Position numbers and translations under genes: made by a program | Virus record (IMG/VR): IMGVR_UViG_3300031963_000423 | Location: 1-37,518 of that record | Length of the DNA: 37,518 nucleotides | DNA from: a virus | Reading direction: 5' to 3' (one strand) | Notes under the pieces: model-generated | Seen by the model: the letters and a program-made list of their open reading frames with translations, nothing else | Told to the model about the DNA's origin: nothing | Database searches by the model: none | Shown here: piece after piece, positions 26 through 37,235 of the stretch | Layout: every line of letters starts with the position of its first letter | Numbering within the stretch: position 1 is the first letter of the stretch

Positions 26-424
26 TTATACTGTTCTCAATTTATCCCCAACAAAGTAATAAGCCAAAACTTTTTTCTTAGTCGCCATAGCGGTTTGAGG
101 ATTATTATCTAATGTCCATTTCATTGTTGGTTTACTTGAATCTGAGGTACATGGTAATCTTCCATCTGAACCTGAACACGACATTATATCACCTTTTGAG
201 TTAATCGCATAACCGTTTCCTCCTTTTTGAAAGAAAACCATTTTATCATTAATTACTGATTTTCCATCTTTGGATTGATAAATTATAGGTAAAAAAGTAA
301 CTCCAGGAACACCTTTATAAGGTTGTGGGTATGGCCCAACTCCTGTCGCTGTTGCCTGTTCCATTATTACTCTTCTTACAATTCTTGTAAGGTCTGATTC
401 TGTTAGTCTAACTATTCTTTTCAT
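26..424 (-). CDS. Class A leader protein, 132 aa, virion candidate
   Basis: The N-terminus is a basic amphipathic leader (RIVRLTESDLTRIVRR, then VIME|Q) nearly identical to the leaders of the genes at 32145 and 35500; residues 20-22 form an I-M-E site resembling the T4 prohead-protease site (L/I-x-E). After the presumed cut at residue 22 the mature part is about 110 residues, with a Pro/Gly-rich start (VGPYPQPYKGVPG) and a Cys pair (SCSGSDGRLPC). It has no transmembrane segment and no domain I recognise. The ATG is fixed by the leader alignment. A terminator-like hairpin lies just upstream at 464-489, so it probably has its own promoter in 425-463. Inferred role: internal or processed virion protein; function unknown. 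Confidence 0.85.
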   Translation of the reverse strand: MKRIVRLTESDLTRIVRRVIMEQATATGVGPYPQPYKGVPGVTFLPIIYQSKDGKSVINDKMVFFQKGGNGYAINSKGDIMSCSGSDGRLPCTSDSSKPTMKWTLDNNPQTAMATKKKVLAYYFVGDKLRTV

Positions 425-463
425 AATTTCTTTTTCTTTTAGTAATAAATATTCTTATAAAAC

Positions 464-489
464 AAAAAAACACCTCTCGGTGTTTTTTT
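464..489. terminator. Bidirectional rho-independent terminator
   Basis: An A-tract runs into the stem ACACC, then loop TCTC, then GGTGT and a T-tract. The A and T tracts pair too, so the hairpin can work on either strand. It directly follows the stop of the minus-strand gene at 491-775. Confidence 0.75.
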
Positions 490-490
490 T

Positions 491-775
491 TTACAGTTCT
501 TGAACTTTTTTCATAATGTCAGTTACTTTATCTTCCGACAACCAACCAATCACATCATTTGTTATTGGCGTATTATAGGTTAGTTCCCATTCCTTTTCAT
601 TACCAAAAAGAATCGCAAGTTCCCATTCATTTTCGTTGTTTGTATATGATGAATACCTATCATATATTTTAAACCTAACGACAGATACACCATACCCATT
701 GTCAAAAAATATTTTACCTGATAATCCATCACCTACAGAATGTGGTTGAAAATCAATGTCTTTGAATGTTTTCAT
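491..775 (-). CDS. Conserved small phage protein, 94 aa, unknown function
   Basis: A soluble mixed alpha/beta protein with aromatic, acidic patches (FFDNGYGVSVVRF, NENEWELAILFG, TPITNDVIGWLSED). I recall similar short proteins in environmental T4-like phages but know of no assigned function. It carries no leader. The ATG at 775 lies 23 bases inside the end of the upstream small membrane-protein gene, which suggests translational coupling. The stop is immediately followed by the terminator at 464-489, so this is the last gene of a three-gene minus-strand operon starting at the cysteine-peptidase-like gene. Confidence 0.8.
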   Translation of the reverse strand: MKTFKDIDFQPHSVGDGLSGKIFFDNGYGVSVVRFKIYDRYSSYTNNENEWELAILFGNEKEWELTYNTPITNDVIGWLSEDKVTDIMKKVQEL

Positions 776-944
776 TATTTACGATATTTTTAATTTGTAA
801 TAAACAAGCCACTAACCATCCTAATGTTGCTATTTTGTCACCAATAAAAATACATAATAAAAAATTAACAATCAAAACAATAAACAAAATTATGTTCAAA
901 GTCTTTGTCATATCAATAAGTTTTATTATATAATTATTTATCAT
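753..944 (-). CDS. Small membrane protein, 63 aa
   Basis: It has two hydrophobic stretches, about residues 17-34 (IILFIVLIVNFLLCIFIG) and 38-51 (ATLGWLVACLLQIK), giving a short hairpin membrane protein. The start codon overlaps the upstream stop as ATGA (bases 941-944), the coupling seen throughout this window; an internal Met12 is an alternative start. It overlaps the downstream gene by 23 bases. Product unknown; the gene is accepted mainly from the coupling and the hydrophobic pattern. Confidence 0.55.
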   Translation of the reverse strand: MINNYIIKLIDMTKTLNIILFIVLIVNFLLCIFIGDKIATLGWLVACLLQIKNIVNNENIQRH

Positions 945-1414
945 TTGATTTCAAAGGCACATTTCATCACTCTTTTTACTTTCATTGAATCTTCGTAGTT
1001 TCCAATAACAACACCATCTTTAATTGTAAATGCGTGTCCTGAAACAATAACAAAATATGTCCCAATAGGATTTCTTTTAATAAAAGTTCCGACTGTCATA
1101 TTTCGTTTTTTAATTTCACCTTTGACTTTCACATCATATGATAATGTTCCAAACATAGATGGTGTAAATCGGTATCCAACCAAATGAACTTTTTTACCAT
1201 TCACTTCCACGTTTTCATTTGACATTTTAACCAATCTTAAAGAAGTACCATAAGTACCTTTTCTTGGTTGTCTTTTAAACTCTTCTGCAACATATTTGTG
1301 AGCATCATTGTAAGAGATTTCAAATGAAGAAGCAAAGGCTCTTACAACACAATCGTTTGTTTCACTTTTAGCAATTGCAGATTCAGAATATCCTTTGATT
1401 GCTTTTGATGTCAT
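941..1414 (-). CDS. Papain-like/C39-type cysteine peptidase candidate, 157 aa
   Basis: Motifs fit a papain-like Cys-His enzyme: NDCVVRAFA near the N-terminus (Cys22 from the chosen start), GHAFTIKDG near residue 127 (His), and an Asp or Asn in DGVVIGNYED. Small phage proteins with NDCxxRA...GHA are common; they are usually annotated as hypothetical or C39-like, and substrates are unknown. An outer ATG at 1438 gives 165 aa. I prefer the ATG at 1414 because the promoter box at 1443-1450 leaves only 4 bases before the outer ATG but 28 before this one, matching the 24-29 bases at the other TAnnTTTG promoters here. It is first gene of the operon 941-775-491 and has no leader. Confidence 0.75.
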   Translation of the reverse strand: MTSKAIKGYSESAIAKSETNDCVVRAFASSFEISYNDAHKYVAEEFKRQPRKGTYGTSLRLVKMSNENVEVNGKKVHLVGYRFTPSMFGTLSYDVKVKGEIKKRNMTVGTFIKRNPIGTYFVIVSGHAFTIKDGVVIGNYEDSMKVKRVMKCAFEIK

Positions 1415-1442
1415 TTCGTATGGTAATCTGTCTTTCATATCT

Positions 1443-2362: not shown

Positions 2363-4567
2363 TTATCGAATAATTGTAAGATGACCAACTAATGTTTTTT
2401 TTCCGTCATTATCCAAATTACCAAATGTAACTTTATAAAAATAAACACCATCAGGACAAATCTTTCCGTTATACGTTCCGTCCCAATACGCACTCGCGTC
2501 ATTAGATTCCCAAACTACTTCTCCCCATCTGTTTACAACAAACATATTGAAGTCTTGTGGATCGAAACCTTCAGTAAATATAGGTTGCCATACTTGGTTT
2601 ACCTCATCACCATCAGGAGTAAAAGAATTGGGGATATAAATAAGTTCCAATGGACAATCTGATATGTTTACACTTGTTGATTGGATATCTGACACACACC
2701 CATTAACTTCGTGATAAACTTGAATAATGTAAAACCCGTCTGTATCCCAATTTTGTATTAAATTAAATGACTCTGTGGTATCACCATTAAAAATCCAACT
2801 CATTATTCCACCATTTAAACTTGATTGAACAGAATAAACTCTGATTGCCGTATCACCTTCACATAATTGGAAAAACTCATCGTTAGGGATTATGTTTCCA
2901 AGTATTGGTTGAGGATTAACAATAACATTAATTAATGTGTCAAATGTACAATTACTTTGTGTGTATTCATACATTATCACATTATTTCCTACCAAACTTG
3001 GGTCAGGACAGAATTGATTGTTAACAAGACTACCTGTTAATACACCTCCTGTTGGGTTTACGACAATATCTGCACAGTTATCATAATCGCAGAAAGGACC
3101 TATTGGTTGAATTGTTGGGTTAATATCGAATATTAATAAATCAAAGAATTGTGGTAAACTTTCACATCCATCAGAATTATTCCCAATAACACTTACTCCT
3201 TGTGGTACATTCCCACTTGGGTTATTATCCCAATTTACATAAACAGAATCGTTACCCTGTCCACTTATAATAGAACCAAGTGTTGTCCAAGTGTATGTAT
3301 AACCATTTCCATTGTCATTTACAAAATAAAGTTCACTTGTTGAGTAATCACAAACAGTATCGATAGATTGTATTGGGTTAATTACAACTTGTGGTGGGTC
3401 TGTAAGTGTCACAGATGTTGTTATATCACACCCCTGATTATCTGTGACAGTTACATCATATGTTCCTTCACATAAATCAATAAGGTTTGGCGTACCCTGT
3501 CCATTACTCCACACATATGTAAATGGAGGTTGTCCATTGTTTGGTGAAACGTCAATTGTCCCGTCACAACTTTGAAAACAAGTTGGATCTGTAAAGTTTA
3601 CAGTTAATGGTTGTAGGTTTGGAGGTCCTGGTTGAACAAATACCGTATCAGGTGTCTGTCCAGGAATATTATTACAAGTATTCCATCCTTGATTACAAGT
3701 AGGATAAACAAGTTGACAAGTATAAAATTCTCCTGTGGATGGTGGAGTTACTGTGATACTTGTTCCAGTTCCTATTGAAACGGGATTACCAACAATAAAC
3801 CAAGTTGGTGTTGGTAGAACCGTAGGCCCACTTGGTGTATATCTTCTTGCATCGTTATTTGCAGTCCATTGTGTTGAGTTTCTACCTGGTACAGGGACAG
3901 CAAGAGTTCCTCCATTATTATGTAATCCTTGAACGGCAGTTCCACCAGCCCAAGAAGGACAGTTAGGTTTGTTTAAAATATGGTTTTCAATAACATTTGT
4001 TGATTCATAAATAACAATATGAAATGTCCCTGTTAAGTTTGTACAAGAAAACATTGGAACATTAATCCAACTAACTACCAATTTCCTACAAGGTGCAGTT
4101 CCTTGAACTTGGTATCTTATTTGACCCCCAACACCTGGATGCCAATCCTGCCACGGACCCATAATACAATTTTTTGGAACAGTCCCAAGCCCCGTAGGGA
4201 TTGTAGTTGACGTAAATGTAGTTGGTTGAGCAGGAGAAAAAGAAATCCACCCATTAGAACCAACATAAAACTGAGTATATGTTTGCCCATAAAAACAAAA
4301 AGTAAACCCAATATTAAATGGTCCTTGTTGAGAATCATCTGTCATTATAAGTGACGTTCCCGTATTTGTTTGATTAACAAAAGGAATAGTTGTAACATTG
4401 TAATTTGTTGTTTGGTTAGGATTACTACCAGGAGCACATTGACTAAAATCGGCGGTTAAAGTAGTAGACCCAACACCACAAGCAAGATATTGATCGGGAC
4501 CGAGTGATGGGCAATTTTGTGATAAAGTAAATAAAGGTAAAAATATCAGGAATAACAATTTTTTCAT
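2363..4567 (-). CDS. Secreted SprB-repeat protein with T9SS/gliding-motility C-terminal domain, 734 aa
   Basis: The signal peptide MKKLLFLIFLPLFTLSQ has a typical flavobacterial end. About residues 60-250 form a Cys-containing beta domain (FNIGFTFCFYGQTYTQFYVG, NCIMGPWQDWHPG, RNSTQWTANNDARRY) common in flavobacterial surface proteins. About 318-391 is a SprB repeat (DPTCFQSCDGTIDVSP, FTYVWSNG, YDVTVTDNQGC). Ig/PKD-like segments follow. About 642-734 is the gliding-motility-associated C-terminal domain (PNSFTPDGDEVNQVW, NRWGEVVW, YWDGTYNGKICPDGVYFYK), a type B sorting signal for type IX secretion. I start at the ATG at 4567; an in-frame GTG at 4573 adds two residues. It has no leader. It looks acquired from a host. 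Inferred: exported and cell-surface-attached by the infected cell, possibly altering adhesion or superinfection. Confidence 0.9.
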   Translation of the reverse strand: MKKLLFLIFLPLFTLSQNCPSLGPDQYLACGVGSTTLTADFSQCAPGSNPNQTTNYNVTTIPFVNQTNTGTSLIMTDDSQQGPFNIGFTFCFYGQTYTQFYVGSNGWISFSPAQPTTFTSTTIPTGLGTVPKNCIMGPWQDWHPGVGGQIRYQVQGTAPCRKLVVSWINVPMFSCTNLTGTFHIVIYESTNVIENHILNKPNCPSWAGGTAVQGLHNNGGTLAVPVPGRNSTQWTANNDARRYTPSGPTVLPTPTWFIVGNPVSIGTGTSITVTPPSTGEFYTCQLVYPTCNQGWNTCNNIPGQTPDTVFVQPGPPNLQPLTVNFTDPTCFQSCDGTIDVSPNNGQPPFTYVWSNGQGTPNLIDLCEGTYDVTVTDNQGCDITTSVTLTDPPQVVINPIQSIDTVCDYSTSELYFVNDNGNGYTYTWTTLGSIISGQGNDSVYVNWDNNPSGNVPQGVSVIGNNSDGCESLPQFFDLLIFDINPTIQPIGPFCDYDNCADIVVNPTGGVLTGSLVNNQFCPDPSLVGNNVIMYEYTQSNCTFDTLINVIVNPQPILGNIIPNDEFFQLCEGDTAIRVYSVQSSLNGGIMSWIFNGDTTESFNLIQNWDTDGFYIIQVYHEVNGCVSDIQSTSVNISDCPLELIYIPNSFTPDGDEVNQVWQPIFTEGFDPQDFNMFVVNRWGEVVWESNDASAYWDGTYNGKICPDGVYFYKVTFGNLDNDGKKTLVGHLTIIR

Positions 4568-4582
4568 ACGCACTTATTAAGA

Positions 4583-4953: not shown

Positions 4954-7410
4954 CTATTTGAGTCTGATGTTTGGTAAATCTTTTCTTCTATTTGGTTTTA
5001 CTTTGAATACCTCTCTATTGATATCCTGTCTAGTTTTATTTTTAATTTCTATCAACTCATTTCTTTGTTTTGTTATTTTGTTTTTTTGAATTTCATTTTC
5101 ATCAATAGTTTTATTTAACATCGAAAAAAGTGGATTACTCTGAATGTCGACTTTTTTTGTTTCTTTTGGTCTATCATTAATATTTGTCTTTGGTAACACA
5201 TTAACCGGTTTTTTATTAAAAATTGTGGATATTATTTTTTCATTTCTTTCCTCATTTTCTATTTTTTTACTCAGACTAATGATTGTATTTACATTCGATA
5301 TGAACGTCAAATCCACTTCGTGTAGTTTATTTGGGTTACCATGTCCTTTCTTAGATTTACTAATTTTTGCATAATTATGTCTAAGTGGTGACCTCATCCC
5401 TGTTTTTGGGTTCATAGTAAGACTGTTTTCATGTACACGTCTTTTGAATTGGAGTTCATTAGTATGAAGTAATTTTGGTTTTGTTTTATAGAGTCTGGAC
5501 ATAAAGTCGGAATCTGCCGCAACCTTCCATGGCTCAAATCCGTTCATATTATAAAAAATATCTTTTTTAATACCAAAAACACCTTCGCCAAAATAATGTT
5601 TTTTATTTGTTGTTTGACCAAATTCTGAATATTTTGGTTTAACACAAATGTTATTATTCAATCCATCTATGGTTGTTTTTACCATATTTTTCATCATTAT
5701 ATCATCAGAATCAAAAAATAATAACTTTTCTGATTGTGATATCTTAGACAAACTATTTTTTATTACATATGGTCCAACATTTTCTTGAGAATAATAAAAT
5801 CTTATTTTGGGGTCGAATTTATTACTTTTTATTAAATTTAATGTTTTTTCACACGAATCAATCCCGACTAATATTTCAACATTATGTTCTGAGGAACTTT
5901 CTAATATAGAATTTAAACACTCAATAATATAATCTTCGTTATTATACGTAGGGATTATTATTGACAAATCAAAATTAGTTTTTAATTGAATGGGAGGCTT
6001 AGTTGTTTTTATTACATTTTCAAACAACGAAAGATTATCATAATTATTAATTAATCGAAGAGTTAAATCTTTTTCTATTTTGTAAAATTTAGTTGTTGGT
6101 AACTCTATTAATTTACCAAACATTTTTTTTCTTTTTCGGTCTTCTATTATTCTATGGTAATTTTGTCTTATGTTAGATACAGCATTAGTCTCAGGTTTAA
6201 TTGTTATGTTTTTATCGTGTCTACGTCGATAAAATAACCCCATATTCAAATAAATGGACTTTAAATTATTACCCTTTTCTCTAGAAAGAAATTCAGAATC
6301 GGCAGCACAAACCCAAGGCTCAAATCCATTGAACTCCATAAATAAATCCTTTTTAATCCCCAACTGACCAACAGAAAAGAAACCAGCCATGTTTCTATCT
6401 GTTAAATTAGGTATGTCGCTTGGATTTTTAAAATTATAAAATCTATACCTTACTACATCATGAGAACTTAAATTTTTTAAAACAAGGGGTATTAAATTTT
6501 CTTTTGCAATATCGTCTGAATCAAAAAATAAAAGATTATTAGAATTTGCAATTTTTGCTAACGAATTTCTTATCACGTAAGGTCCAACGTTTTTTTCAAA
6601 AAAATAAAACCTTATAAAATCTTGGAATTGATTTATATTTTTGTATATATAATTTTTAGTTTTTTCACAACTATCTATACCCACTAATATTTCTATTTTT
6701 TTTCCTTTACCCGATTCAATCATTGAATTTAACGATTCTGGTAAAAATTCTACATTATCATAAGTTGGTATAATAATACTCAGGTCATATTCGTAAATGT
6801 TTTTTAAAAAAACGTCCTTTGGGTGAATTTTTGAGAGGATGTTGTTTCCATGAATTACAAGTCTTGTGTGTCCTTCGTCAAGTAAAAAAATGGTATTAGT
6901 TAATTCTTTCATTTTACCATGATCTTTCTCATACACAAAATGATTGACATTTTTTTGACATAAAGTCAAAAACATAGAAATACTTTTATTATTAGTGTAA
7001 TCAATATCCCCTCTTCGATATAAGTCACCATTATGAAAATTTAATTTTTGCACCTTAGAATGAATTAAAAAAGTGTCTTTTGTATTAATATTTTCTAAAA
7101 AAGTTCTTTGTATTTTATCAATATAATCCACCCTCATCCAATCATCACAGTCGTGTCTTGTTTGTATTTGAAAATTGTTTTTTTCACAATATTCTCTACA
7201 TTCAGAAGTTGATTTAAAGTATAACGCTTCATCACCAAAAAAAGGTTTTAAAAAGTGAATATGTCTTTCTTTTATTATAAAACCTATTTTAAAATTTTTA
7301 TTTCTTTGTGACTTTATTGATGGTATGTAGGTATTTTTCATTACCTCGAAATAATCATGGAAACGATTATCATCATCAAAATTTATACGGGTTAATACAA
7401 TGTGGTTCAT
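4954..7410 (-). CDS. Multidomain glycosyltransferase with two tandem GT2 domains, 818 aa
   Basis: Two GT-A family 2 domains in tandem. The first starts near residue 209 (LSIIIPTYDNVEFLPESLNS) with FFDSDD at 295-300; the second starts near 482 (LSIIIPTYNNEDYIIECLNS) with FFDSDD at 565-570. Both contain VGIDSCEKT, ENVGPYVI and a GFEPW...AADS(E/D)F acceptor-side motif, so they look like an internal duplication. DSDD is the DxD-type metal/nucleotide-sugar site. Residues 1-200 (MNHIVLTRINFDDDNRF, RHDCDDW) resemble rhamnosyltransferase-like domains (PF11316 type). The C-terminal 100 residues are Lys/Asn-rich. The ATG overlaps the stop of the upstream GT gene as ATGA. Likely acts on a surface glycan or virion protein; sugar and acceptor unknown. 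Confidence 0.9.
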   Translation of the reverse strand: MNHIVLTRINFDDDNRFHDYFEVMKNTYIPSIKSQRNKNFKIGFIIKERHIHFLKPFFGDEALYFKSTSECREYCEKNNFQIQTRHDCDDWMRVDYIDKIQRTFLENINTKDTFLIHSKVQKLNFHNGDLYRRGDIDYTNNKSISMFLTLCQKNVNHFVYEKDHGKMKELTNTIFLLDEGHTRLVIHGNNILSKIHPKDVFLKNIYEYDLSIIIPTYDNVEFLPESLNSMIESGKGKKIEILVGIDSCEKTKNYIYKNINQFQDFIRFYFFEKNVGPYVIRNSLAKIANSNNLLFFDSDDIAKENLIPLVLKNLSSHDVVRYRFYNFKNPSDIPNLTDRNMAGFFSVGQLGIKKDLFMEFNGFEPWVCAADSEFLSREKGNNLKSIYLNMGLFYRRRHDKNITIKPETNAVSNIRQNYHRIIEDRKRKKMFGKLIELPTTKFYKIEKDLTLRLINNYDNLSLFENVIKTTKPPIQLKTNFDLSIIIPTYNNEDYIIECLNSILESSSEHNVEILVGIDSCEKTLNLIKSNKFDPKIRFYYSQENVGPYVIKNSLSKISQSEKLLFFDSDDIMMKNMVKTTIDGLNNNICVKPKYSEFGQTTNKKHYFGEGVFGIKKDIFYNMNGFEPWKVAADSDFMSRLYKTKPKLLHTNELQFKRRVHENSLTMNPKTGMRSPLRHNYAKISKSKKGHGNPNKLHEVDLTFISNVNTIISLSKKIENEERNEKIISTIFNKKPVNVLPKTNINDRPKETKKVDIQSNPLFSMLNKTIDENEIQKNKITKQRNELIEIKNKTRQDINREVFKVKPNRRKDLPNIRLK

Positions 7411-8006
7411 TCTAAAATTTTATATTTTTTATCATAAATTTCTAAGTCATTCACGCCTATATTATAAAATTCTGAATCGGATTTTCTTGTTTTACCAATT
7501 TCCCCACCCAAAAGAGGATTACTCAATATTCCTCTATTTATAGTATTTTTGAATAACCAAAAATCCCCTCTGAATATTCTGAAATCATCTGGTATCATAT
7601 TGTAATTTTTTACATACATAAAACAACCAAACCCATTTTTTTGAAATTCATCAATTTTTCTTATTTCTAAATTTTCTTTTTTTATCCAATCCAAACCAAT
7701 TATGTCAAAATCACTGTCGTCTATTAACTTTAAAACTTCATCTAAATTTGGTATGTAAATATCGTCATTGGCAAGTATCAGTTTGTATTTAGAAAGCTTG
7801 TACCCTACATTCCAAGCGGGATTAACAAATATATTTTTAAATTCAGTGTAATAGATTATTTTATTATAAATAGATAGGTCAAGTTTATTTACATAATCAT
7901 TATCAATTATTATTATCTCTTTTACGAAATTGGATTTTTCGTATACTGGAATCATTTTTGCGAGATATTCGCTTTTCCACATTGTGGGTATTACTATTGA
8001 AAACAT
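7407..8006 (-). CDS. Small GT2-like glycosyltransferase, 199 aa
   Basis: Starts MFSIVIPTMWKSEYLAKM, a GT-A Rossmann-like first strand. It then has EIIIIDND, a conserved NPAWNVGYK and LILANDDIYIP, where NDD stands for the DxD metal site. RGDFWLF and SEFYNIGVNDLEIY near the C-terminus are seen in short GT2-like proteins. At 199 residues it is only the catalytic core. The frame extends upstream to 8114, but that part is hydrophobic, overlaps the divergent gene at 8040 and lacks GT features, so I start at 8006. It overlaps the larger glycosyltransferase downstream by ATGA. Confidence 0.85.
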   Translation of the reverse strand: MFSIVIPTMWKSEYLAKMIPVYEKSNFVKEIIIIDNDYVNKLDLSIYNKIIYYTEFKNIFVNPAWNVGYKLSKYKLILANDDIYIPNLDEVLKLIDDSDFDIIGLDWIKKENLEIRKIDEFQKNGFGCFMYVKNYNMIPDDFRIFRGDFWLFKNTINRGILSNPLLGGEIGKTRKSDSEFYNIGVNDLEIYDKKYKILE

Positions 8007-8039
8007 CTTTTTTAAATATATATAATAATATAAACATTT

Positions 8040-8702
8040 ATGAAAAAAAATAAAATAGTCGGTGTGTATTTTGTTGCTCTTCTTAATGAGTGGGAGCCAA
8101 TTGTAAAACCCCAAATAAATAGACTTTTTAATTCGAATTTATATAAAGAAACCGACGAATTGCACGTGAGAGTTTTTTTTAATGATAATGAAGAACTTTA
8201 TAAATTCCGGACATTACTGAAAAACGACAAAAAAATTTTATTGACATTAACTAAGAAAAACGAATATGAATTTGGTGCTTTAAGAATACTTAAAAATTTG
8301 AGTAAAAAAGAAGATTTTTATGGTTATTATTTACACGCTAAGGGAGTTAGTAGAACTATGAATAAACAGTTATCTAAATGTGTAAAGTCTTGGAGAGAAT
8401 ACATGGAGTATTTTTTAATTGATAAATATGACTTGTGTGTAAAAGAACTTGATAACGGTTGGGACGCTGCTGGAGTAAAAATTAGGAGGACTCCAGGAAC
8501 AGATTTTTTTCATTTTTCGGGTAATTTTTGGTGGGCAAACTCTAAATTTATAAGAGAATTACCTGAAATAGATTCTTTAGATTTGAATAAAAGGCACGAT
8601 GCTGAATTTTGGATTGGTTATACTAAAGGTAAACTAAAATGTCTACACGATACAAAACAAGCAAGTATTAGAACTATTATTACCGAAAATTACAAATTTT
8701 AA
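8040..8702 (+). CDS. Glycosyltransferase-like protein of the sugar cassette, 220 aa
   Basis: Motifs match a poorly characterised group found in polysaccharide loci: GYYLHAKGVSR near residue 95, WREYMEYFLID, WDAAGVKIRRTPGTDFFHFS and GNFWWANSKFIRELP. HAKGVS plus NFWWA...LP recall the GT-A-like enzymes annotated near rhamnan or capsule genes. No signal peptide or membrane segment. It is divergent from the gene at 7407-8006 (33 bases apart) and its last 4 bases overlap the end of the convergent RgpF-like gene. Donor and acceptor unknown. Confidence 0.8.
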   Translation: MKKNKIVGVYFVALLNEWEPIVKPQINRLFNSNLYKETDELHVRVFFNDNEELYKFRTLLKNDKKILLTLTKKNEYEFGALRILKNLSKKEDFYGYYLHAKGVSRTMNKQLSKCVKSWREYMEYFLIDKYDLCVKELDNGWDAAGVKIRRTPGTDFFHFSGNFWWANSKFIRELPEIDSLDLNKRHDAEFWIGYTKGKLKCLHDTKQASIRTIITENYKF

Positions 8703-9430
8703 ATTACAAAAATTTTTTGATTCTCCTTTTCAACAAGGTAACCAAATATACGTTCAATAGCATGAATTATTGACGGTTCAATTACATATCCATCTTTAGT
8801 GTTATCCATAATATGTTTTATTACGTCATCTGTAAAATATTTTTTTATAATTTGATATCTAACCCAAAAAATAGTACCCCCTATAAAATTTTTTTTCAAA
8901 TAACTTTCGTCTAACTTAAATAATGGTATTAATTTAATTATCTCATTTTTGTTTATTGTGGAGTTATTGAATAATCTATATCCCACCATTCCACAATTTT
9001 TATCATTATTAAATTTATTCAATATTTGATTAACTTTTTTTTCGTCAAATAAAACCCCCTCCATCAATTGTTTAAACCAATTTTTCCCGTGATTCAAAGT
9101 TTTCTCAACACCATATTTTTTAGTTCTACTTGATGGATTTTTTTCCGAACCAATACCCTTTTTTGTATGTATTTTCAGAATTAAATCAGTATCATCATCT
9201 ATCACTTTGAAAACGTTTAAAAACCCTCCAATGTCAACACCTTTGTTTTCAACAATAATTATTTTAGTTTGATTATTATATTCTTTAATTTTTTTAATAT
9301 CACAATCTTTGTAAAATCCACGAACTAAACTTATATACAAATCATATGGGTGTTTGATGTTTTTTAAGTAACCAACAATTTCATCAAACATATCAGTGTA
9401 AAATAAATGAACACAAACTGCTATTTTCAT
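8699..9430 (-). CDS. RgpF-like (rhamnan synthesis protein F family) glycosyltransferase, 243 aa
   Basis: Conserved RgpF-family features: CVHLFYTDMFDEIVGYL at the start, YDLYISLV, ENKGVDIGGFL, LILKIHTKKG and GGTIFWVRY. In streptococci and others RgpF relatives act in rhamnose-glucose polysaccharide synthesis. Only one such domain is present. It is convergent with the gene at 8040 by a 4-base overlap. An upstream hairpin (9456-9481) separates it from the ejection-type operon. Role inferred: surface-glycan or virion-protein glycosylation. Confidence 0.85.
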   Translation of the reverse strand: MKIAVCVHLFYTDMFDEIVGYLKNIKHPYDLYISLVRGFYKDCDIKKIKEYNNQTKIIIVENKGVDIGGFLNVFKVIDDDTDLILKIHTKKGIGSEKNPSSRTKKYGVEKTLNHGKNWFKQLMEGVLFDEKKVNQILNKFNNDKNCGMVGYRLFNNSTINKNEIIKLIPLFKLDESYLKKNFIGGTIFWVRYQIIKKYFTDDVIKHIMDNTKDGYVIEPSIIHAIERIFGYLVEKENQKIFVI

Positions 9431-24519: not shown

Positions 24520-24539
24520 ATTCAATCATTTATGATATT

Positions 24540-28781: not shown

Positions 28782-29207
28782 ATGGAAAAAATTCAAAGTA
28801 ACAGTACTGTGACTGTAAATTACACAGGTAGATTGGAAGATGGAAGTATATTCGATTCTTCATTAAACGAAGGTAGAGAACCGTTAACCGCAACTTTGGG
28901 TCAAGGTCAACTTATTAAAGGTTTTGAACAAGGTTTAGTAGATATGACTATTGGTGAAAAGAAAACCGTAGAGATTGACCCTATGGAAGCTTACGGTGAC
29001 TATAATCCAGCACTCATTCAAGAAGTACCAAAAGACAAAGTACCTGAAGGTGTACAAGAAGGACATATGCTTCAAGCAAATACACCAATGGGGGTTTTGA
29101 ACTTTAGGGTAAGTGAAATCAAAGAAGAAACTGTCACTTTAGATGGTAATCACCCTTTAGCAGGAAAAAAATTAATTTTTGATTTAGAAGTTGTTAGTTT
29201 TAACTAA
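28782..29207 (+). CDS. FKBP-type peptidyl-prolyl isomerase, SlyD-like, 141 aa
   Basis: FKBP motifs: VTVNYTGRLEDGSIFDSS (Tyr14, Phe24, Asp25), GQLIKGFEQGLVDMTIGE, and AYGDY at 70-74. An insert-in-flap chaperone domain follows (residues about 73-122), and NHPLAGKKLIFDLEV at the end is diagnostic of SlyD-type enzymes. The metal-binding His-rich tail of E. coli SlyD is absent. It should catalyse prolyl isomerisation and help folding in the cytosol, perhaps of virion or tail proteins. No leader. A terminator follows immediately. Confidence 0.93.
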   Translation: MEKIQSNSTVTVNYTGRLEDGSIFDSSLNEGREPLTATLGQGQLIKGFEQGLVDMTIGEKKTVEIDPMEAYGDYNPALIQEVPKDKVPEGVQEGHMLQANTPMGVLNFRVSEIKEETVTLDGNHPLAGKKLIFDLEVVSFN

Positions 29208-29738
29208 TTAAATCCCCTTAATTGGGGATTTTTTTTCTAACAACCATTCCATTATCTCGTCAGATTTTTTATCGACAATTACAACTTTTAAATAGTTATT
29301 ACTAATAAAGTAAAATTTGTTAAGTACTTTGTAATATTTTTTTTGACTCCCAACCTTTAATAAAGATGTTAGTCTAGATATAATCATATCAATATTTTTT
29401 TTTAATTCTTTTGTGTTATCAATTTTAGTGTTTTCAATTTTTTTAACAAAGTTGTAAGACGACTCAAAAGAATATTTACCTAAAGTTTTTTTATTTTCTT
29501 TTAAAAATTTAGGTACTTCAGTTCTTAAGTCTAATATACCAGTTTTACAATCTTCAATTAATTTCAAAAATTTTTTTCTAATATTAAGGTCAACACTATT
29601 TATAGAATTCATGATAAATCTTCGATAATACTCATCTAAAAATGTTTTTTTAATTTTAACATCACTATATAACATTTCTATCCTTCTAAGAGTATCAGAA
29701 TATAGTTCATTTATTTGATTTTCACTTAGTCTTTCCAT
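29208..29738 (-). CDS. Helical protein, 176 aa, possible leader-type start
   Basis: Begins MERLSENQINE|LYSDTL, with an I-N-E match at residues 9-11, but the leader pattern is weak. The whole protein is Lys/Asn/Leu-rich alpha-helix (KKFLKLIEDCKTGIL, KKIENTKIDNTKELKKNIDM). The last codons encode the hairpin used as the FKBP terminator on the other strand. Its start overlaps the upstream leader gene by 13 bases. No family recognised. Confidence 0.7.
   Translation of the reverse strand: MERLSENQINELYSDTLRRIEMLYSDVKIKKTFLDEYYRRFIMNSINSVDLNIRKKFLKLIEDCKTGILDLRTEVPKFLKENKKTLGKYSFESSYNFVKKIENTKIDNTKELKKNIDMIISRLTSLLKVGSQKKYYKVLNKFYFISNNYLKVVIVDKKSDEIMEWLLEKKSPIKGI
29211..29236 (+). terminator. Rho-independent terminator after FKBP gene
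   Basis: AATCCCC, loop TTAATT, GGGGATT and a run of T. On the plus strand it ends the FKBP gene; it lies inside the 3' end of the convergent minus-strand gene. Confidence 0.8.
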
Positions 29739-30043
29739 AAATCACATATTTTTTTTCTTCTTAACCAAACTGTTGGGTTTTCACCTTTTTGACTAAGATA
29801 ATTAACATAATCAGATAATAAATGATTCACAGAAGAGTTGAGTTTAGAAATATCGGAATTGTTTTTTTTAAATTTTAGTTCAAGTGAGTTCCAAATTTTA
29901 TCCAATTTAGATTCAAAACTTCTTTCGTTTTTATTAAGGTTTTTAATAAGTTCAATTTCTTCTGAATAAATTTCATCATCACCCAATATTGATTCGGTAA
30001 TTAAATAATTTTTAAATATATTTTTTATTATATTTCTATTCAT
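29726..30043 (-). CDS. Leader protein, 105 aa, class B-like
   Basis: MNRNIIKNIFKNYLITE|S gives a leader with an I-T-E site at residues 15-17. After it, an acidic to mixed helical protein (DEIYSEEIELIKNLNKNERS, LNSSVNHLLSDYVNYLSQKG) with a basic WLRRKK near the end. No family recognised. It sits 5 bases after the P60 gene's stop and overlaps the next gene by 13 bases, so it is in the same operon as the cell-wall hydrolases. Confidence 0.75.
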   Translation of the reverse strand: MNRNIIKNIFKNYLITESILGDDEIYSEEIELIKNLNKNERSFESKLDKIWNSLELKFKKNNSDISKLNSSVNHLLSDYVNYLSQKGENPTVWLRRKKICDLWKD

Positions 30044-30048: not shown

Positions 30049-30783
30049 CTATACAACTTCACCAAACCCTTTAATTTTATTTGCCCAATACGAACTTTTA
30101 TTTACTCCTTTTTTTGTATAATTTGTTTTTTCTGTGTCTTGGATTCCACTACTTGATGATGCGTGTATCATATGAAATATTTTTTCTCCTTGTTCATTTT
30201 CATCTACCTTAGACACTAAACCAACGTGACTTATTGAAGACCCTTGACCAAAAAACACCAAATCTCCTGGTTTTACCTCACTCAATGTTTTTTTTGTAAC
30301 ATTTGGGCTATTATAAATGTCTACAGCTCTTCTTCCTACTTTTTTTGTGTCAGTGATGCTTTCTATAATACCCATTTCATATAACATTCGTCTAACAAAA
30401 CCACTACAATCGAAAGTTTTTGTACCTTGAGATCCCATTACATATGGTGAACCTAAATACTTTCTTGAGTCTTTTACTATTTGAGGTTCATCAAAAATCT
30501 CAATTGGTTCAGGTTCTTTTGGTTCTAAAACAGGAATCTCATCATCTAATGGTTTGTCTTCTATATCCACAACATCTTGAGGTATTGTAGTTGTTGTCGT
30601 CGTAGTTTTTGGGACAAGTTTAACTTTTTGTCTTTCACTTTCATAATCAGGATTATCAAACATTGTTCTAGCATATAAATCCATTTCATCATCCTGTTCA
30701 ATGATTAAATTAGAATGTTTTTTATGCATTTCTAATATTCTTTTCTTTTCAGAAAAAGTTATGTCCAAATAATTTTTTTTCAT
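30049..30783 (-). CDS. NlpC/P60 peptidoglycan endopeptidase with class C leader, 244 aa
   Basis: Leader: MKKNYLDITFSEKKRILEMH then SNLIIE|Q (I-I-E at residues 27-29). A Thr/Pro/Glu-rich linker spans about 55-100. The NlpC/P60 domain at about 100-244 has TFDCSGFVRRML with Cys126, GDLVFFGQGSSISHVGLV with His186, and MIHASSSSG with His207. The family cleaves D-Glu-gamma-diaminopimelate or related bonds in peptidoglycan. I start at the ATG at 30783; a TTG at 30813 would overlap the upstream gene, and the leader begins here. Linker plus leader suggests packaging in the virion and action at entry or tail penetration. Confidence 0.93.
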   Translation of the reverse strand: MKKNYLDITFSEKKRILEMHKKHSNLIIEQDDEMDLYARTMFDNPDYESERQKVKLVPKTTTTTTTIPQDVVDIEDKPLDDEIPVLEPKEPEPIEIFDEPQIVKDSRKYLGSPYVMGSQGTKTFDCSGFVRRMLYEMGIIESITDTKKVGRRAVDIYNSPNVTKKTLSEVKPGDLVFFGQGSSISHVGLVSKVDENEQGEKIFHMIHASSSSGIQDTEKTNYTKKGVNKSSYWANKIKGFGEVV

Positions 30784-30784: not shown

Positions 30785-31081
30785 TCAATCTTCAGGAAAA
30801 ATAGTTTTGCCAATTCTTAAACCTTTTGGTAAATCCAAATCTTCCATACCTCTTGGTCTATTAGCACGTTTTATTCTTTCAGGATTAAACTTAGAGTTTA
30901 ATCTATTAAGTTCAATTTCATATCTCATTCCAAACTCATTAAGTCTGTTTATAACATCATCAATCAATTCAGCTCTTTTTGATGCGGAAATTCCAGTGAC
31001 AAAATCTTTATCTGAATTTTCATTTACAACCTTTCTTATTAACGACACCAATTGTCTTTCATTTAACCTTACTTCTCTCAT
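30785..31081 (-). CDS. Class A leader protein, 98 aa
   Basis: MREVRLNERQLVSLIRK then VVNE|N is a class A leader with a V-N-E site at residues 19-21. The mature part is short and basic (SASKRAELIDDVINRL, SKFNPERIKRANRPRG). The leader fixes the ATG at 31081; an upstream GTG frame to 31126 overlaps the M23 gene and is rejected. It lies between the two hydrolase genes: 7 bases after the M23 stop, 1 base before the P60 ATG. It could be a partner of these enzymes; function unknown. Confidence 0.85.
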   Translation of the reverse strand: MREVRLNERQLVSLIRKVVNENSDKDFVTGISASKRAELIDDVINRLNEFGMRYEIELNRLNSKFNPERIKRANRPRGMEDLDLPKGLRIGKTIFPED

Positions 31082-31088: not shown

Positions 31089-31844
31089 TTAATTAAATAA
31101 TCCTTTAATTTTATCCATAAACGCACTTCCCGTTTTTTTCATAACATCCCATATTTCAAACTCGTCTTCTGCTTCGGTTGCTGGTCTATCTTCGTCAGTT
31201 TTTTCGTCTTTATTATCCATACCAAAAAACTTTTTGAACTTTTCTTTAAATGTGTCTCCCATTTCGTCATATTCTAAATCTTCAATATCCTTTGGTTCTT
31301 TATCCATAGATTTTTTTAGAACATCTATTGGGTCTTCTCCACTATAAAACCCACCACTTGTTTTGTAAATATTATAATGAAGATGAGGTGCTGTTCCTGA
31401 TGCGTTTCCTGAATTACCTAATGTTCCCACTTGTTGACCTGCAAATACAAAATCATTTTCGTCTACAGATATAGAATCTAAATGCCCTAACCAATGAGAA
31501 TACCCCGTCTCAGGGTCTTCAATTATCACAGTTAACCCATTACCACCATATTTAACTTTTCCGTCAACAGGAGCAAGAATAGGTGTTCCTTTAGGTCCAA
31601 ATATATCAACACCAATGTGACCCTTCAAATGACCGCCTGCACCAGCGTGAGTTGCCTTTCTTGAATAGTCAGTATTAGCGGTTCTTCTTGGGTCTGTAAA
31701 ATCATCCCAATCTTGGTCATAACCAATATTATATCTATCCCCTTTAATTGGAAAAACATCTAAATCAGGAAGGCTTTCATTTAAATTATATAAACTACGT
31801 ATTCTTTCTTTTTCGCTCTCAGATATCAAACTTCTTTTTTTCAT
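31089..31844 (-). CDS. M23-family metallo-endopeptidase with class C leader, 251 aa
   Basis: Leader MKKRSLISESEKERIRSLYN then LNE|S (L-N-E at 21-23). The LytM/M23 domain spans about residues 65-170: GHIGVD gives His76 and Asp80, YSHWLGHLDS holds His121, and PHLHYNIY gives His154 and His156. These are the zinc ligands and catalytic His of the HxxxD...HxH fold. An acidic tail (EPKDIEDLEYDEMGD) and a helix end (GSAFMDKIKGLFN) follow. M23 enzymes cut peptide cross-bridges in peptidoglycan. First gene of the hydrolase operon. The upstream terminator at 31881 separates it from the next gene. Confidence 0.93.
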   Translation of the reverse strand: MKKRSLISESEKERIRSLYNLNESLPDLDVFPIKGDRYNIGYDQDWDDFTDPRRTANTDYSRKATHAGAGGHLKGHIGVDIFGPKGTPILAPVDGKVKYGGNGLTVIIEDPETGYSHWLGHLDSISVDENDFVFAGQQVGTLGNSGNASGTAPHLHYNIYKTSGGFYSGEDPIDVLKKSMDKEPKDIEDLEYDEMGDTFKEKFKKFFGMDNKDEKTDEDRPATEAEDEFEIWDVMKKTGSAFMDKIKGLFN

Positions 31845-32144: not shown

Positions 32145-32501
32145 TTAATCCCAATCAGGACAAGATGTTCCAGAATTTTTCGATGGACAAACCGGTTTTT
32201 TTCGTTTGTATCTTATTTTTTTAGCCAAAGGATGATTGGTGATAGATCTCATAATCATTCTTTTTAATTTACCATGACCATACTTACGACGCATTTTTTT
32301 AATAAACATTTGAACGTCATGACCAGCGTCTTCTATCTTATCGATAATTCTTTGGATAACACCTGGATCATTTTCGTCTGCGGTTTCTAACATATCGTCG
32401 ATTTCATTAGCTAAATCGTCATCCATCATGTCTTGTTCCATAATAACTCTTTTAACTATACGAGTTAAATCTCTTTCATTCAATCTTACAATTCGTTTCA
32501 T
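32145..32501 (-). CDS. Class A leader protein, 118 aa
   Basis: Leader RIVRLNERDLTRIVKR then VIME|Q, I-M-E at residues 20-22. The mature part is acidic first (MMDDDLANEIDDMLETADEN), then a basic, Arg/Lys-rich helix end (MFIKKMRRKYGHGKLKRMIM, KKIRYKRKKP) with a CxxxxxxxC near the end. A DNA-binding or condensing internal protein would look like this; that is inference. A TATAAATA box lies 9 bases upstream of its ATG. Confidence 0.85.
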   Translation of the reverse strand: MKRIVRLNERDLTRIVKRVIMEQDMMDDDLANEIDDMLETADENDPGVIQRIIDKIEDAGHDVQMFIKKMRRKYGHGKLKRMIMRSITNHPLAKKIRYKRKKPVCPSKNSGTSCPDWD

Positions 32502-33167: not shown

Positions 33168-35060
33168 TTACATAAATACGGGACAACTTAATGTATCGAA
33201 TTTTTTTGGTTGTTTATATTTTCTAGGTCTTCGTCCTCTTCTTGGTCTATCAAAATCTAAATCAAATTTAATTTCCCATTTTGCTCTTAAACCTATTAAA
33301 GGTATTCTAAATGGTTTTCTACCTGGAGCATAAAAATATATTGGATAAGAAGGGATATTTATTACTTCATAGTTAGGTACATCATCTATTGGAACTTCTT
33401 CTCCAGGATTTTCGATTGGTTCAGGTTGGATCGTATCATTTAAAATAATTTGAACCCCTCCTCTAACATATTTATATTGGTCATATTCCGCTTTTGTTGC
33501 ATGTGGGTTTCCGCACTCACTTCTTTTTACACCTTTTATTGTTGTTAAATTACAAACGTTTACATCCGTACTACAAGCAGGTGTCATTTTGTAATCTCCT
33601 TTTGGGACATACATAAATCCTATAGGTGGGTTTGGTCCTGTTGTCCCATCTCCATTTCCTCCAAGAGGATTTAAATCTATTTTAGAATTAGCATCAATTA
33701 CAACTCCAATTGCCGATAATTCTCTTTTCAAAATTTCTAAACCAGTGTTAAGTCTGTTATTTGCTAACTCTAAAAAACTTAAATTAGCGGCATTTCCTCC
33801 ATTTCTAAATCTAGATGCTGACGCTTCTAACCATAATAAATTTAAATATGCTTTTGGTTTTCCTTCAGGTGGATTTAATTTGTCCATTTCAAATTTAATA
33901 GTACTACATATATCAGCAACTTGTATTTTAAAGTTTTCAGCATTTGGTTCTGTCCATTCGTTATCTTTGAATAGATTTCTTTCAACCTCTTCAGTGGTAG
34001 GAAAATCAATTGTGATTGCAGGAAAAACTATTTCTTCTGGTTTGACATTAAAATTATCAGGTTCTTTTTCTATTTCCTTTTTGAATTTTTCCATGTCTTG
34101 TCCTACAGCGATTTTTTTCCATTTTTTTGTTGGGAAAGTTTCGTTGAAATATTCTATTGCCGAAACCGCAAACTGTTTATTTTCTGGATCCGCTTTTAAT
34201 TTTTCCCAATTTGTTTTAGAGTTTGAGCTCATTCTTCTTAATAAAGGTTTTTCATTTTTAGCTATAAACTCGTCAAATTGTTCTGGTGGTGTTTTTACTT
34301 CATAAGGTTCTTTAGAACTTATTTGTTCGAATTCAGCTGATTTTCCTTGACCAATATATTTGTATTTATAAACTCCAATATCTACATTTCGTCCATCATA
34401 TAGATCTTTAACAAAAGTTACATTTTTACCGATATTAATTGTAATTTTATGGGTATCTTCTAACCAATTTTTGAATTTTTTAGTCCATCTTTGATTAAAC
34501 TTCTTGAAGTCCCCGTCAAATCTATCATCTAACCAATCTGCAAAATCAGAATTTTTGATATTACGTTTTAAATTCCTAAAAAACCTTTTAATACCTTTCC
34601 ATATTACAGTATCCACGAAATACCATTCATCTTGTTCATTTAATAAATAATTTTCATTAACCGAATCAGTAATAGGGGTTGTATAAGCACTTAATGAAGG
34701 AGCAATAAATTTACCAATAAATTCTTGCATATATTCACTTTCTGCTGCATCTTCAAGACTCATTCCTGCTTCAGAAGACGTATTTTCTGTACTTCCTGTC
34801 GTGTCTTGTTCATATAAAAAATGGTAGTTATCTTTATTTTCATCCTCAAATAAAAACAATGATTTTTTAAAGTTGTTGTCTGACAATCTAGATTCTATTA
34901 ATCTTTGTCTCTCAAGAAGGTCTATGTATTTTTCTTTTTCACTTTTTGTTCCATAATAACTTTCTTGTATATAGTTGTCATTTTTCTCTTTTGATGATTG
35001 ATTCTCCAATCTTCTATTAGCTTCTTGAATGTGTCTAATTTTACTATAACTTCTGTTCAT
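33168..35060 (-). CDS. Large leader-type protein with several (I/L)-x-E sites, 630 aa
   Basis: The basic, low-complexity N-terminus (MNRSYSKIRHIQE|ANRRLE) has I-Q-E at 11-13, another at 31-33, L-Y-E|Q at 82-84 and L-N-E|Q at 140-142, so processing could be stepwise. Then Trp/Lys-rich helices (WKGIKRFFRNLKRNIKNSDF), a region at about 405-480 (LEASASRFRNGGNAANLSFL, ANNRLNTGLEILKRELSAIG, GGNGDGTTGPNPP) that weakly recalls OmpA-like peptidoglycan-binding domains, a Cys-rich stretch (ACSTDVNVCNLTTIKG) and a basic, Arg-rich end (DRPRRGRRPRKYKQPKKF). It is monocistronic between terminators. Inferred virion protein, possibly wall-contacting. Confidence 0.85.
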   Translation of the reverse strand: MNRSYSKIRHIQEANRRLENQSSKEKNDNYIQESYYGTKSEKEKYIDLLERQRLIESRLSDNNFKKSLFLFEDENKDNYHFLYEQDTTGSTENTSSEAGMSLEDAAESEYMQEFIGKFIAPSLSAYTTPITDSVNENYLLNEQDEWYFVDTVIWKGIKRFFRNLKRNIKNSDFADWLDDRFDGDFKKFNQRWTKKFKNWLEDTHKITINIGKNVTFVKDLYDGRNVDIGVYKYKYIGQGKSAEFEQISSKEPYEVKTPPEQFDEFIAKNEKPLLRRMSSNSKTNWEKLKADPENKQFAVSAIEYFNETFPTKKWKKIAVGQDMEKFKKEIEKEPDNFNVKPEEIVFPAITIDFPTTEEVERNLFKDNEWTEPNAENFKIQVADICSTIKFEMDKLNPPEGKPKAYLNLLWLEASASRFRNGGNAANLSFLELANNRLNTGLEILKRELSAIGVVIDANSKIDLNPLGGNGDGTTGPNPPIGFMYVPKGDYKMTPACSTDVNVCNLTTIKGVKRSECGNPHATKAEYDQYKYVRGGVQIILNDTIQPEPIENPGEEVPIDDVPNYEVINIPSYPIYFYAPGRKPFRIPLIGLRAKWEIKFDLDFDRPRRGRRPRKYKQPKKFDTLSCPVFM

Positions 35061-35499: not shown

Positions 35500-35907
35500 T
35501 TAATAATTTCCTCTACCTCCACCAAAAGTGTGTCCTCCTTTCATTCCCCCAACCATAGGGCTCATGATGTTTTTAAAGAATTTACTTTTTTGAAGTTTTG
35601 TTGGGTTCGCAATAAATCTAAGTACAATTCTACCTGTTCTACTTTGAGAAATCTCAACTTCCCCGTCATAGTTATCACTCTCTGCTTGTCTTATTACAGA
35701 ATCAATTGAGTTATATAAATCTGAATCGGTCAAACCATGTTCTTCCAATGCGTCGTCTATTTTTCTAATTAAATCCATTTTTCTTTCTTCAAGTTCAGAT
35801 GAACTAGGACCAAAAATACCTTCTTCTAATTCCGCTTCTTGTTCCATTATAACCCTTCTTACAATTCGGGTTAAATCTCTTTCAGTAAGTCTTACTACTC
35901 TTTTCAT
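35500..35907 (-). CDS. Class A leader protein, 135 aa
   Basis: Leader RVVRLTERDLTRIVRR then VIME|Q, I-M-E at residues 20-22. The mature part has a first acidic helix (ELEERKMDLIRKIDDALEEH), a small alpha/beta domain (VEISQSRTGRIVLRFIANPT) and a Gly-rich end (GGMKGGHTFGGGRGNY). No family recognised. A TATAAT-like box 25-30 bases upstream is possible. Inferred processed virion protein. Confidence 0.85.
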   Translation of the reverse strand: MKRVVRLTERDLTRIVRRVIMEQEAELEEGIFGPSSSELEERKMDLIRKIDDALEEHGLTDSDLYNSIDSVIRQAESDNYDGEVEISQSRTGRIVLRFIANPTKLQKSKFFKNIMSPMVGGMKGGHTFGGGRGNY

Positions 35908-35967
35908 ATTTTTTTTATTTTTTAATGTCGATTATACAAATAAATATCTCCTTATTTGAAAAAATTA

Positions 35968-36294
35968 CTAATCTATATCTATTTCGTCCTCACAATCGGC
36001 ATTATCATAATATTCTTCGATTTCATTACCAACCAATTCTTCCAAAGTATCATGTATCATATACCACTTTTCATTAGATTCGTCATCATCCATATCATAA
36101 AAATTGGGAAACTCTTGCATCATAAATTCTGTAACACCTTCTAAAACCGCTTGTTTATAACTATTGAACCCTGTACCATAGATTTTATAATAACAAGGTT
36201 CTTGGTCAACAAGTTCTCTATCTAATAGTTGTCTAACAAGAATAAACCTTCTTTTCAAGAACGTATACTGTGATTCTGTTATTATATATTTCAT
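35968..36294 (-). CDS. Class B leader protein, 108 aa
   Basis: MKYIITE|SQYTFLKRRF carries the ITESQ leader (I-T-E at residues 5-7). The rest has a helical, Arg-rich part (LVRQLLDRELVDQEPCYYK) and a strongly acidic end (NEIEEYYDNADCEDEIDID). The ATG is one base after the stop of the next ITESQ gene, and the gene after that carries the same leader, so three such genes are in tandem. Function unknown. Confidence 0.8.
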   Translation of the reverse strand: MKYIITESQYTFLKRRFILVRQLLDRELVDQEPCYYKIYGTGFNSYKQAVLEGVTEFMMQEFPNFYDMDDDESNEKWYMIHDTLEELVGNEIEEYYDNADCEDEIDID

Positions 36295-36295
36295 A

Positions 36296-36859
36296 TTATT
36301 TATGAGTTCTTGCTTTTTCTAAAAAGTTTATTGATGTCGGAATAACATAAGACTCGTATTGTCCCTCAATATAATTTATTATGTCCTTTAATGAATCAAA
36401 CTCACTTTTTATTTTTTTATTTTTTTGGTAATAACCTGAAAGATCAATTTCATCACTTTCACCATCCTCATCTTTGTAAATATATATATCACAATCTATT
36501 GGGAATTCACATTCACCGTTCCAATACGGAGTTGCAATACCAACAAATATATCATCATGTAGATTATCTTTAAAGTCATAATATACAACTCCTGACATTC
36601 TATCATAACTTAATTCCATTTTGTATCTACCATCATTTGCGTAATAGTTTTCTTTGATGTAGTCTTTATTGAAAATGAAACTAACAAAATGGTCTAATTC
36701 ATCACAATTGAGATTTAATTTTTTTTGATATATTTTATCAAAAACAACAATACTTAATTTATATCTACTCAAAGTTTCAACAAGACCGTTTTTTTCGATG
36801 GATTGTTCTAGTTGTGATTCTAAACTATTTCTTTGACTCTCTGTTATTAATACATCCAT
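36296..36859 (-). CDS. Class B leader protein, 187 aa
   Basis: MDVLITE|SQRNSLESQLEQS carries the ITESQ leader. The ATG at 36859 is chosen over a TTG at 36868, which would overlap the upstream gene and place the leader 3 residues deeper. The remainder has an alpha/beta domain (YKMELSYDRMSGVVYYDFKD) and an acidic, Tyr-rich segment (CDIYIYKDEDGESDEIDLSG). No family recognised. Middle gene of the ITESQ operon. Confidence 0.8.
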   Translation of the reverse strand: MDVLITESQRNSLESQLEQSIEKNGLVETLSRYKLSIVVFDKIYQKKLNLNCDELDHFVSFIFNKDYIKENYYANDGRYKMELSYDRMSGVVYYDFKDNLHDDIFVGIATPYWNGECEFPIDCDIYIYKDEDGESDEIDLSGYYQKNKKIKSEFDSLKDIINYIEGQYESYVIPTSINFLEKARTHK

Positions 36860-36860
36860 A

Positions 36861-37235
36861 TCAAACAAGTTTTATTTTCCAAATTTGTATACCTGCTGAT
36901 TCACCAGGAAATAATCTATGGTTATCAGGATAATTATATCTTACGTTTTTTGGTACTTTTTCATAAACCTCTAAAATAGAATTTTCAATATCGTCCTCAT
37001 TTATGTCTGACCTATTTTTATAACCATAATAATCAAATAGTTCTTCTTCATCAATTATTAAATTTAAAACTACCAAATAGTATTCACGGTAACTCACATG
37101 AAATTTCACAAATTCAAAGTCTTCTATAAAAGGAAGATAATTAGATAGGAGTTTTCTGAATAAATCAAAACCATAATCGTATTTTGTTTTATTCTCTAAT
37201 AATCTTAGTTGTGATTCTGTAATTAATAGTCTCAT
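36861..37235 (-). CDS. Class B leader protein, 124 aa
   Basis: MRLLITE|SQLRLLENK carries the ITESQ leader, with LLE as a second possible site at residues 12-14. The rest is Tyr-rich (FHVSYREYYLVVLNLIIDEE, FDYYGYKNRSD) and ends in PGESAGIQIWKIKLV. First gene of the three-gene ITESQ operon; the following ATG is 1 base after its stop. Function unknown. Confidence 0.8.
   Translation of the reverse strand: MRLLITESQLRLLENKTKYDYGFDLFRKLLSNYLPFIEDFEFVKFHVSYREYYLVVLNLIIDEEELFDYYGYKNRSDINEDDIENSILEVYEKVPKNVRYNYPDNHRLFPGESAGIQIWKIKLV

Follow-up and report, generated by a model that had tools for sequence, protein, structure and literature searches.

Short N-terminal leaders ending in (I/L/V)-x-E tag many proteins of a Bacteroidetes-type jumbo phage and very probably serve as T4-type capsid-targeting sequences

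The DNA analysed here (the window) is a stretch of 37,518 bases that spans the whole of the source record IMGVR_UViG_3300031963_000423; as the window is one entire IMG/VR virus record it is a fragment, and it is a piece of the genome of a Bacteroidetes-type jumbo T4-like phage, belonging to an uncultured giant phage group whose hosts are probably Bacteroidetes bacteria. Of its roughly 50 genes, approximately 25 open with a short leader that is basic and hydrophobic and ends in (I/L/V)-x-E. Very probably these leaders are capsid-targeting sequences of the T4 type, cut by a gp21-like S77 protease and carried by about 40-60 proteins per genome. This reading is built on a leader excess, the modularity of the leaders, conservation of the leader peptide, a protease gene, a matching capsid site and a shared upstream element, all of which were observed in the window or its relatives.

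The census of the window was carried out on proteins of at least 70 residues (n=46), with expectations obtained from shuffles. An [ILV]xE motif ending at residues 5-32 was present in 35/46 proteins vs 17.8 in shuffles (z 5.6), and when the segment before the Glu was also required to be net basic and hydrophobic (the strict rule) 22/46 proteins passed vs 3.8 expected (z about 9-10). At P1, the last leader residue, the excess is peculiar to Glu: exchanging it for D, Q, K, T, S, G or A gave z values of 0 to 2.6, about the usual N-terminal excess, and N under the strict rule was intermediate (z 4.0). An initial sequence-only reading had reported a set of at least 20, and about 25, leader-bearing genes with this motif, which the strict count bears out, and all eleven junctions that it listed are present in the open reading frames of the window. 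Its figure of about 25 holds as a number, but the genes are not all equally certain, those at 18401 and 29208 being doubtful. Tagging of the window is partial, since the IMP dehydrogenase (IMPDH), thioesterase, FKBP, Sec-signal and type IX secretion system (T9SS) proteins are untagged.

Relatives at 61-69% protein identity were reached through the M23 gene of the window (31089-31844): three contigs with lengths of 274-291 kb, and several that are smaller. The ends of genome G003 carry a 203-base terminal repeat, and it is therefore circularly closed, at about 290.5 kb. In its 198-262 kb block, which is syntenic to the window, 46/81 proteins passed the strict rule vs 6.8 expected (z 16), while at positions 16.5-198 kb the count was close to background for N-termini (28/186; z 4.8, a value that N or S at P1 also reaches). 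Genome-wide, 87/313 proteins of G003 passed vs 23.5 expected, an excess of about 60; because some of this excess is ordinary N-terminal bias, 40-60 tagged proteins is a fair range. Similar leader excesses were found in the related genomes G012, G010, G004 and G013. In Flavobacterium phage vB_FspM_immuto (immuto), which is cultivated on Flavobacterium sp. LMO8, a block just upstream of the terminase (101-119 kb) has 14/20 tagged genes. Up to about a fifth of the genes in this phage group appear to be tagged.

At least four recurrent leader types were distinguished, with leader lengths of 7-30 residues: type A, the commonest, (K/R)IIRLTESDLTRIVKRVI-x-E; type B, MKIIITE-S/N-Q; type C, N-L-Q-E-N-I-x-R-I-K-x-M-M-G; and type D, I-S-E-x-E-K-x-R-I-L-x-M-H. 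Type A leaders have two conserved x-E sites, either of which may be the one cut. A type-A profile run on all genomes (at least 14 bits) gave 65 N-terminal and 2 internal matches, with no match among reversed proteins. A degenerate DNA pattern of the type-A start matched 42 viral stretches and had no match in 257 Gb of cellular genomes; tblastn with a 23-residue leader against named phages also gave no match, the query being too short to inform. Among type-A copies, synonymous divergence (pS) within the leader was 0.56, near saturation, at a nonsynonymous divergence (pN) of 0.26, and the next 20 codons gave 0.64 and 0.70 respectively; the peptide is retained despite nearly saturated synonymous change, so selection acts on the leader peptide and not on the DNA or RNA. 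In 17 homologs of the type-A gene 24601-25128 the sole invariant leader columns are M1, E8 and E21, and in the AlphaFold model of its product a helix (8-24) is followed by a low-confidence linker (23-30) ahead of the folded part; a fold search with this model gave no significant match. A near-invariant Glu in a 131-protein alignment was not used as proof because it is partly circular, the set having been chosen with Glu-containing patterns.

Several leader arrangements were noted in the relatives. In a 440-residue protein of G013 (L117:11132-12454) a second complete type-A leader lies at residue 227, as in two fused tagged proteins, and a G003 protein (L063:15328-16281) has an N-terminal leader together with a leader-like stretch ...VRITESHLVLLIKNILKEL at its extreme C-terminus; in T4, Alt and gp21 likewise undergo a cut close to their C-termini (PMC9026906). 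Neighbouring genes at G003:215442-219385 (L073) start with MNLQENIxRIKxMMG and differ in their remainders, forming an array of type-C leader cassettes, and the 387.5 kb G009 (L092-L111) uses a different type-A leader, RLTENDLHRIVKxSVxRILxE.

Natural swaps indicate that leaders are exchangeable between cargos. The M23 hydrolase reads ...GLNE↓SLPELDVFPIQGG (↓ marks the junction) and carries an unrelated leader, ...PLISE↓SLPPLSNFPIQGG, in another phage (L007); both read E↓SLP, and the part that is 76% identical begins within three residues of the junction. The cargo of gene 22664-23902 is 67-70% identical across three phages and follows three different leaders: MSVHKRRNIYE↓D in the window (23870-23902, -) and the unrelated ...ILKEETFLISE↓I and ...IQYINE↓T in the other two. 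For the NlpC/P60 hydrolase and the 855-residue protein the leaders differ from those of the orthologs, and x-E is kept ahead of the conserved part. The former (gene 30049-30783, NlpC/P60 E 6e-15) has a leader ending LIIE↓Q (30697-30783, -), with an unrelated ...LVLE↓Q in its ortholog; the latter (gene 13061-15628) starts MMKQKQQLNE↓LAPVVWG (15599-15628, -), and its ortholog has a longer, different leader with INE↓IAPLVWG at the same junction. No relatives of these two proteins were found outside the genomes examined. In the family of the HExRH metallopeptidase-like gene 20645-21238 (leader MNYKTIILE↓S, 21212-21238, -) leader lengths vary and the Glu is kept, column E9 being nearly invariant in 13 sequences. 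The reverse case is the family of gene 27963-28529, in which the leader, MKNNISEELSYSKYLLNYKRGLVISE↓Q (VISE↓Q; 28452-28529, -), is conserved in 4 phages while the cargo changes. Because homology restarts at the cargo-adjacent Glu across leader swaps, this Glu is favoured as the cut position.

The sequence-only reading had called for a prohead protease in a complete genome, and one is present in a relative, the circularly closed G003. Matches above cut-off to the gp21-type S77 protease (PF03420) were obtained in 10/20 leader-bearing contigs, among them G003 and a nearly identical sister, G002. His85 and Ser140 of T4 gp21, which we take to be the catalytic residues of family S77, are invariant across the protease alignment; the S77 match of G009 is split across the record ends. 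Head genes of G003 follow the T4 order of terminase, portal, a small reverse-strand gene that we read, from its sequence, as ribosomal protein bS21, protease, scaffold and major capsid protein; the bS21 and scaffold assignments were made by sequence and position rather than domain search. The major capsid protein of the relatives shows homology to solved gp23, and its cut site aligns as ...ASFLINE↓ATSE (G003), ...QIVSE↓A (immuto) and ...SFLTE↓A (T4), with Glu and Ala invariant, so that the capsid site gives a direct reading of what the protease of this clade should cut. At P3, two positions ahead of this Glu, the leaders and the capsid site have I, L or V (V being common in leaders) and not the Ala of phiKZ/SPN3US-type sites. 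The cut motif of T4 is L/I-x-E, and a T4 targeting sequence needs only about ten residues (PMC9026906).

Tagged genes also share the upstream element TATTTAT, which lies within 50 bases of 78/85 leader genes with free upstream DNA vs 232/607 others (P 3.5e-22), mostly 11-39 bases upstream; within the window the counts are 11/11 leader genes vs 3/14 others. In G003 the element is found ahead of the genes for terminase, scaffold, protease, capsid, sheath and tube as well, and it is absent upstream of the untagged IMPDH-like, thioesterase, T9SS and CAP-domain genes of the window. TATTTAT is thus a possible late-promoter-like element of this clade, a candidate from sequence. The initial reading of a prohead protease acting on a very large set of targeted proteins is supported by the S77 gene, the capsid site, the swaps, the peptide conservation and this shared element.

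Several points weigh against targeting and cleavage of the T4 type. Type A and B leaders have two conserved Glu residues, the first of which (T/S/N-E where the helix starts) may cap the helix instead of marking a cut; P1', the residue after the junction, prefers Ser, Glu or Asn in the leaders, unlike the Ala of the capsid site; and the site is lost in a few orthologs (35968 in G003; 18401). No protease match was obtained in 10/20 leader contigs, all of which are fragments or of unproven completeness, nor in the window, as expected of a fragment. TATTTAT is moreover AT-rich, and its role as a promoter is putative.

Three other explanations were considered. The leaders could be uncut docking signals for another phage structure or a host membrane, as an amphipathic basic helix would allow and as types A and B, readable as a capped helix without cleavage, might suggest; however, this leaves unexplained the invariant Glu with a hydrophobic P3 at the junction and the homology restarting there in swaps, and we consider it improbable. 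Somewhat less improbable, though still unlikely, is that they are propeptides removed during maturation of ordinary virion proteins, structural or tail-associated, rather than of internal injected cargo. Similar sites do occur in capsid and scaffold proteins, hydrolases of the M23 or NlpC kind can belong to the tail, and the PHROG matches of the NlpC protein are mostly tail proteins, but most tagged genes are located in a variable block of diverse cargo, the excess is weak in the tail cluster, and T4 and SPN3US cut limited sets of proteins, nine in SPN3US (PMC9026906, PMC10052503). That the recurring start acts at the DNA or RNA level, as a translation or expression signal perhaps tied to phage bS21, might be proposed from the leader being almost always at gene starts and from bS21 being encoded in the clade (PMC9723584). 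It was rejected on the synonymous divergence given above, the leader types differ in sequence while x-E is kept, and we hold it to be almost certainly wrong.

Taking the T4-type targeting reading, and by analogy with T4, we infer docking, cleavage, packaging and injection as follows. A late-type promoter would drive expression of a tagged protein late in infection. The basic amphipathic helix at its N-terminus would dock the protein into the scaffold core while the prohead is growing; a cut by the gp21-like S77 protease behind (I/L/V)-x-E would then release the mature protein within the head, and injection together with the DNA would probably follow. The targeting device would thus have been expanded roughly ten-fold relative to T4, with several unrelated, interchangeable leader families and varied cargo that includes peptidoglycan hydrolases. 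Whether the T4 tag has been turned into a general delivery system, with about 40-60 proteins per genome loaded into the head, released by a single protease and injected, for the most part to act against the host or in cell entry, we judge an even matter. If true, a dozens-strong repertoire in widespread Bacteroidetes phages would mean that the tag predicts injected proteins in otherwise unreadable genomes, would open up a long list of candidate proteins for anti-defence and host takeover, and would provide natural leaders usable to load capsids. The leader can serve as an annotation rule for many 'hypothetical' jumbo-phage proteins.

The remaining leaders of the window are on the reverse strand (-) unless marked (+). 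Type A leaders are MKRIVRLTESDLTRIVRRVIME↓Q (VIME↓Q) at 359-424 of gene 26-424 (leader profile E 1.4e-16; TATTTAT at -27), MIVRLTENELISVVRKVLSE↓Q (VLSE↓Q) at 1896-1955 of gene 1479-1955, one ending TINE↓I at 2252-2311 of gene 1967-2311 (TATTTAT upstream), MRRYNLSERELNRLVSRIIKE↓E (IIKE↓E) at 24601-24663 (+) of the aligned gene 24601-25128, MREVRLNERQLVSLIRKVVNE↓N (VVNE↓N) at 31019-31081 of gene 30785-31081, MKRIVRLNERDLTRIVKRVIME↓Q (VIME↓Q) at 32436-32501 of gene 32145-32501 and MKRVVRLTERDLTRIVRRVIME↓Q (VIME↓Q) at 35842-35907 of gene 35500-35907. Type B is represented by MNIVITESQYKKLLLE↓E at 19606-19653 (+) of gene 19606-20229, for which both Glu residues are kept in nearly all of 21 homologs, by MKYIITE↓S at 36274-36294 of gene 35968-36294, the leader lost in the G003 ortholog, by MDVLITE↓S at 36839-36859 of gene 36296-36859 (orthologs MKFIINE↓N, MNIIITE↓N and MKIIITE↓S), and by MRLLITE↓S at 37215-37235 of gene 36861-37235 (TATTTAT at -12). 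The type C leader MSNLIYEIKRLRNLMGVNNLLYESLNIINE↓A (NIINE↓A, with 'IKRLRNLMG') lies at 12949-13038 of gene 10957-13038 (693 residues; ortholog G003 257622), and the type D leader of the M23 peptidase gene (M23 E 1.7e-21), MKKRSLISESEKERIRSLYNLNE↓SLP (NLNE↓S), at 31776-31844.

Other leaders are MKNLKLYNLLLNE↓I at 10916-10954 of gene 9560-10954 (464 residues), where the ortholog G003 259715 reads MSSFKLSKLILE↓R; MNNLNEIIQKSLGLINYDRSKTIDE↓Q (TIDE↓Q) at 17789-17863 of gene 15635-17863 (742 residues; ortholog ...SKHVTE↓Q); one ending ELGE↓QDA at 18028-18102 of gene 17860-18102 (orthologs ELGE↓QD and EIDE↓QG); MNRNIIKNIFKNYLITE↓S (LITE↓S) at 29993-30043 of gene 29726-30043 (ortholog ...YVMTE↓S); and MNRSYSKIRHIQE↓A at 35022-35060 of gene 33168-35060 (630 residues; orthologs in G003 and G012). 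Gene 23911-24525, with a phrog_7595 C-terminal domain, starts with MNMIDYIIKKVLFE↓E (24484-24525), and a similar N-terminus is found in G004 46681; the G004 and immuto proteins that resemble its product align with each other.

The majority of tagged proteins have no known domain. Domains that were assigned, by domain match only, comprise M23, NlpC/P60, phage lysozyme, LysM, PAP2, kinase-like and acetyltransferase domains, together with a predicted ADP-ribosyltransferase domain of polyvalent proteins; cargo with M23, NlpC/P60, lysozyme or ADP-ribosyltransferase domains would suit heads. Among the untagged genes, 2363-4573 (-) encodes an N-terminal secretion-like signal, a SprB repeat and a CHU_C type IX secretion signal and is conserved in relatives, i.e. 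its product is apparently made for a Bacteroidetes-specific secretion route. Genes at 21302-22661 (+) and 28782-29207 (+), which encode a thioesterase, an IMP dehydrogenase/GMP reductase-like enzyme and, judged by sequence, an FKBP-type isomerase, have neither leader nor TATTTAT, and the genes at 4954-9430, glycosyltransferase-like by sequence, are likewise without leader, one of them (818 residues) seemingly containing two domain copies.

The literature searched, subscription papers lying outside it, yielded no description of leaders like these for Bacteroidetes phages. The bS21-encoding Bacteroidetes jumbo phages have their head genes arranged as in G003, including a reverse-strand gene resembling bS21, and the passages of the paper on them that matched a term search do not mention leaders (PMC9723584). 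In SPN3US, for which 14 Glu cut sites in nine proteins are reported (PMC10052503), and phiKZ, many head and ejection proteins are likewise cut after Glu by a gp21-like protease, but the propeptides of SPN3US are mostly 111-254 residues long with the motif A-x-E, whereas the leaders described here are short and end in (I/L/V)-x-E. The internal-protein loci of T-even phages, with at least 10 proteins reported across relatives, some of which inhibit host defence enzymes (PMC12373910), resemble the present system in placing variable cargo behind a common targeting sequence and differ in that far more proteins are tagged in one genome here; no cargo likeness to T-even internal proteins was seen in the family searches, which are the extent of this comparison. 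The closest parallels are to IPI, IPII, IPIII and Alt of T4 with gp21, which share the short N-terminal (L/I)-x-E leader, the S77 protease, the gp23-type capsid with its aligned cut site, and varied cargo including an ADP-ribosyltransferase domain as in Alt. About four cargo proteins in T4 compare with roughly 40-60 tagged genes here, where there are also several leader families of 7-30 residues, two sites in type A and leaders swapped among cargos. The mechanism is that of T4; what is new is the scale, the several leader families and the swapping.

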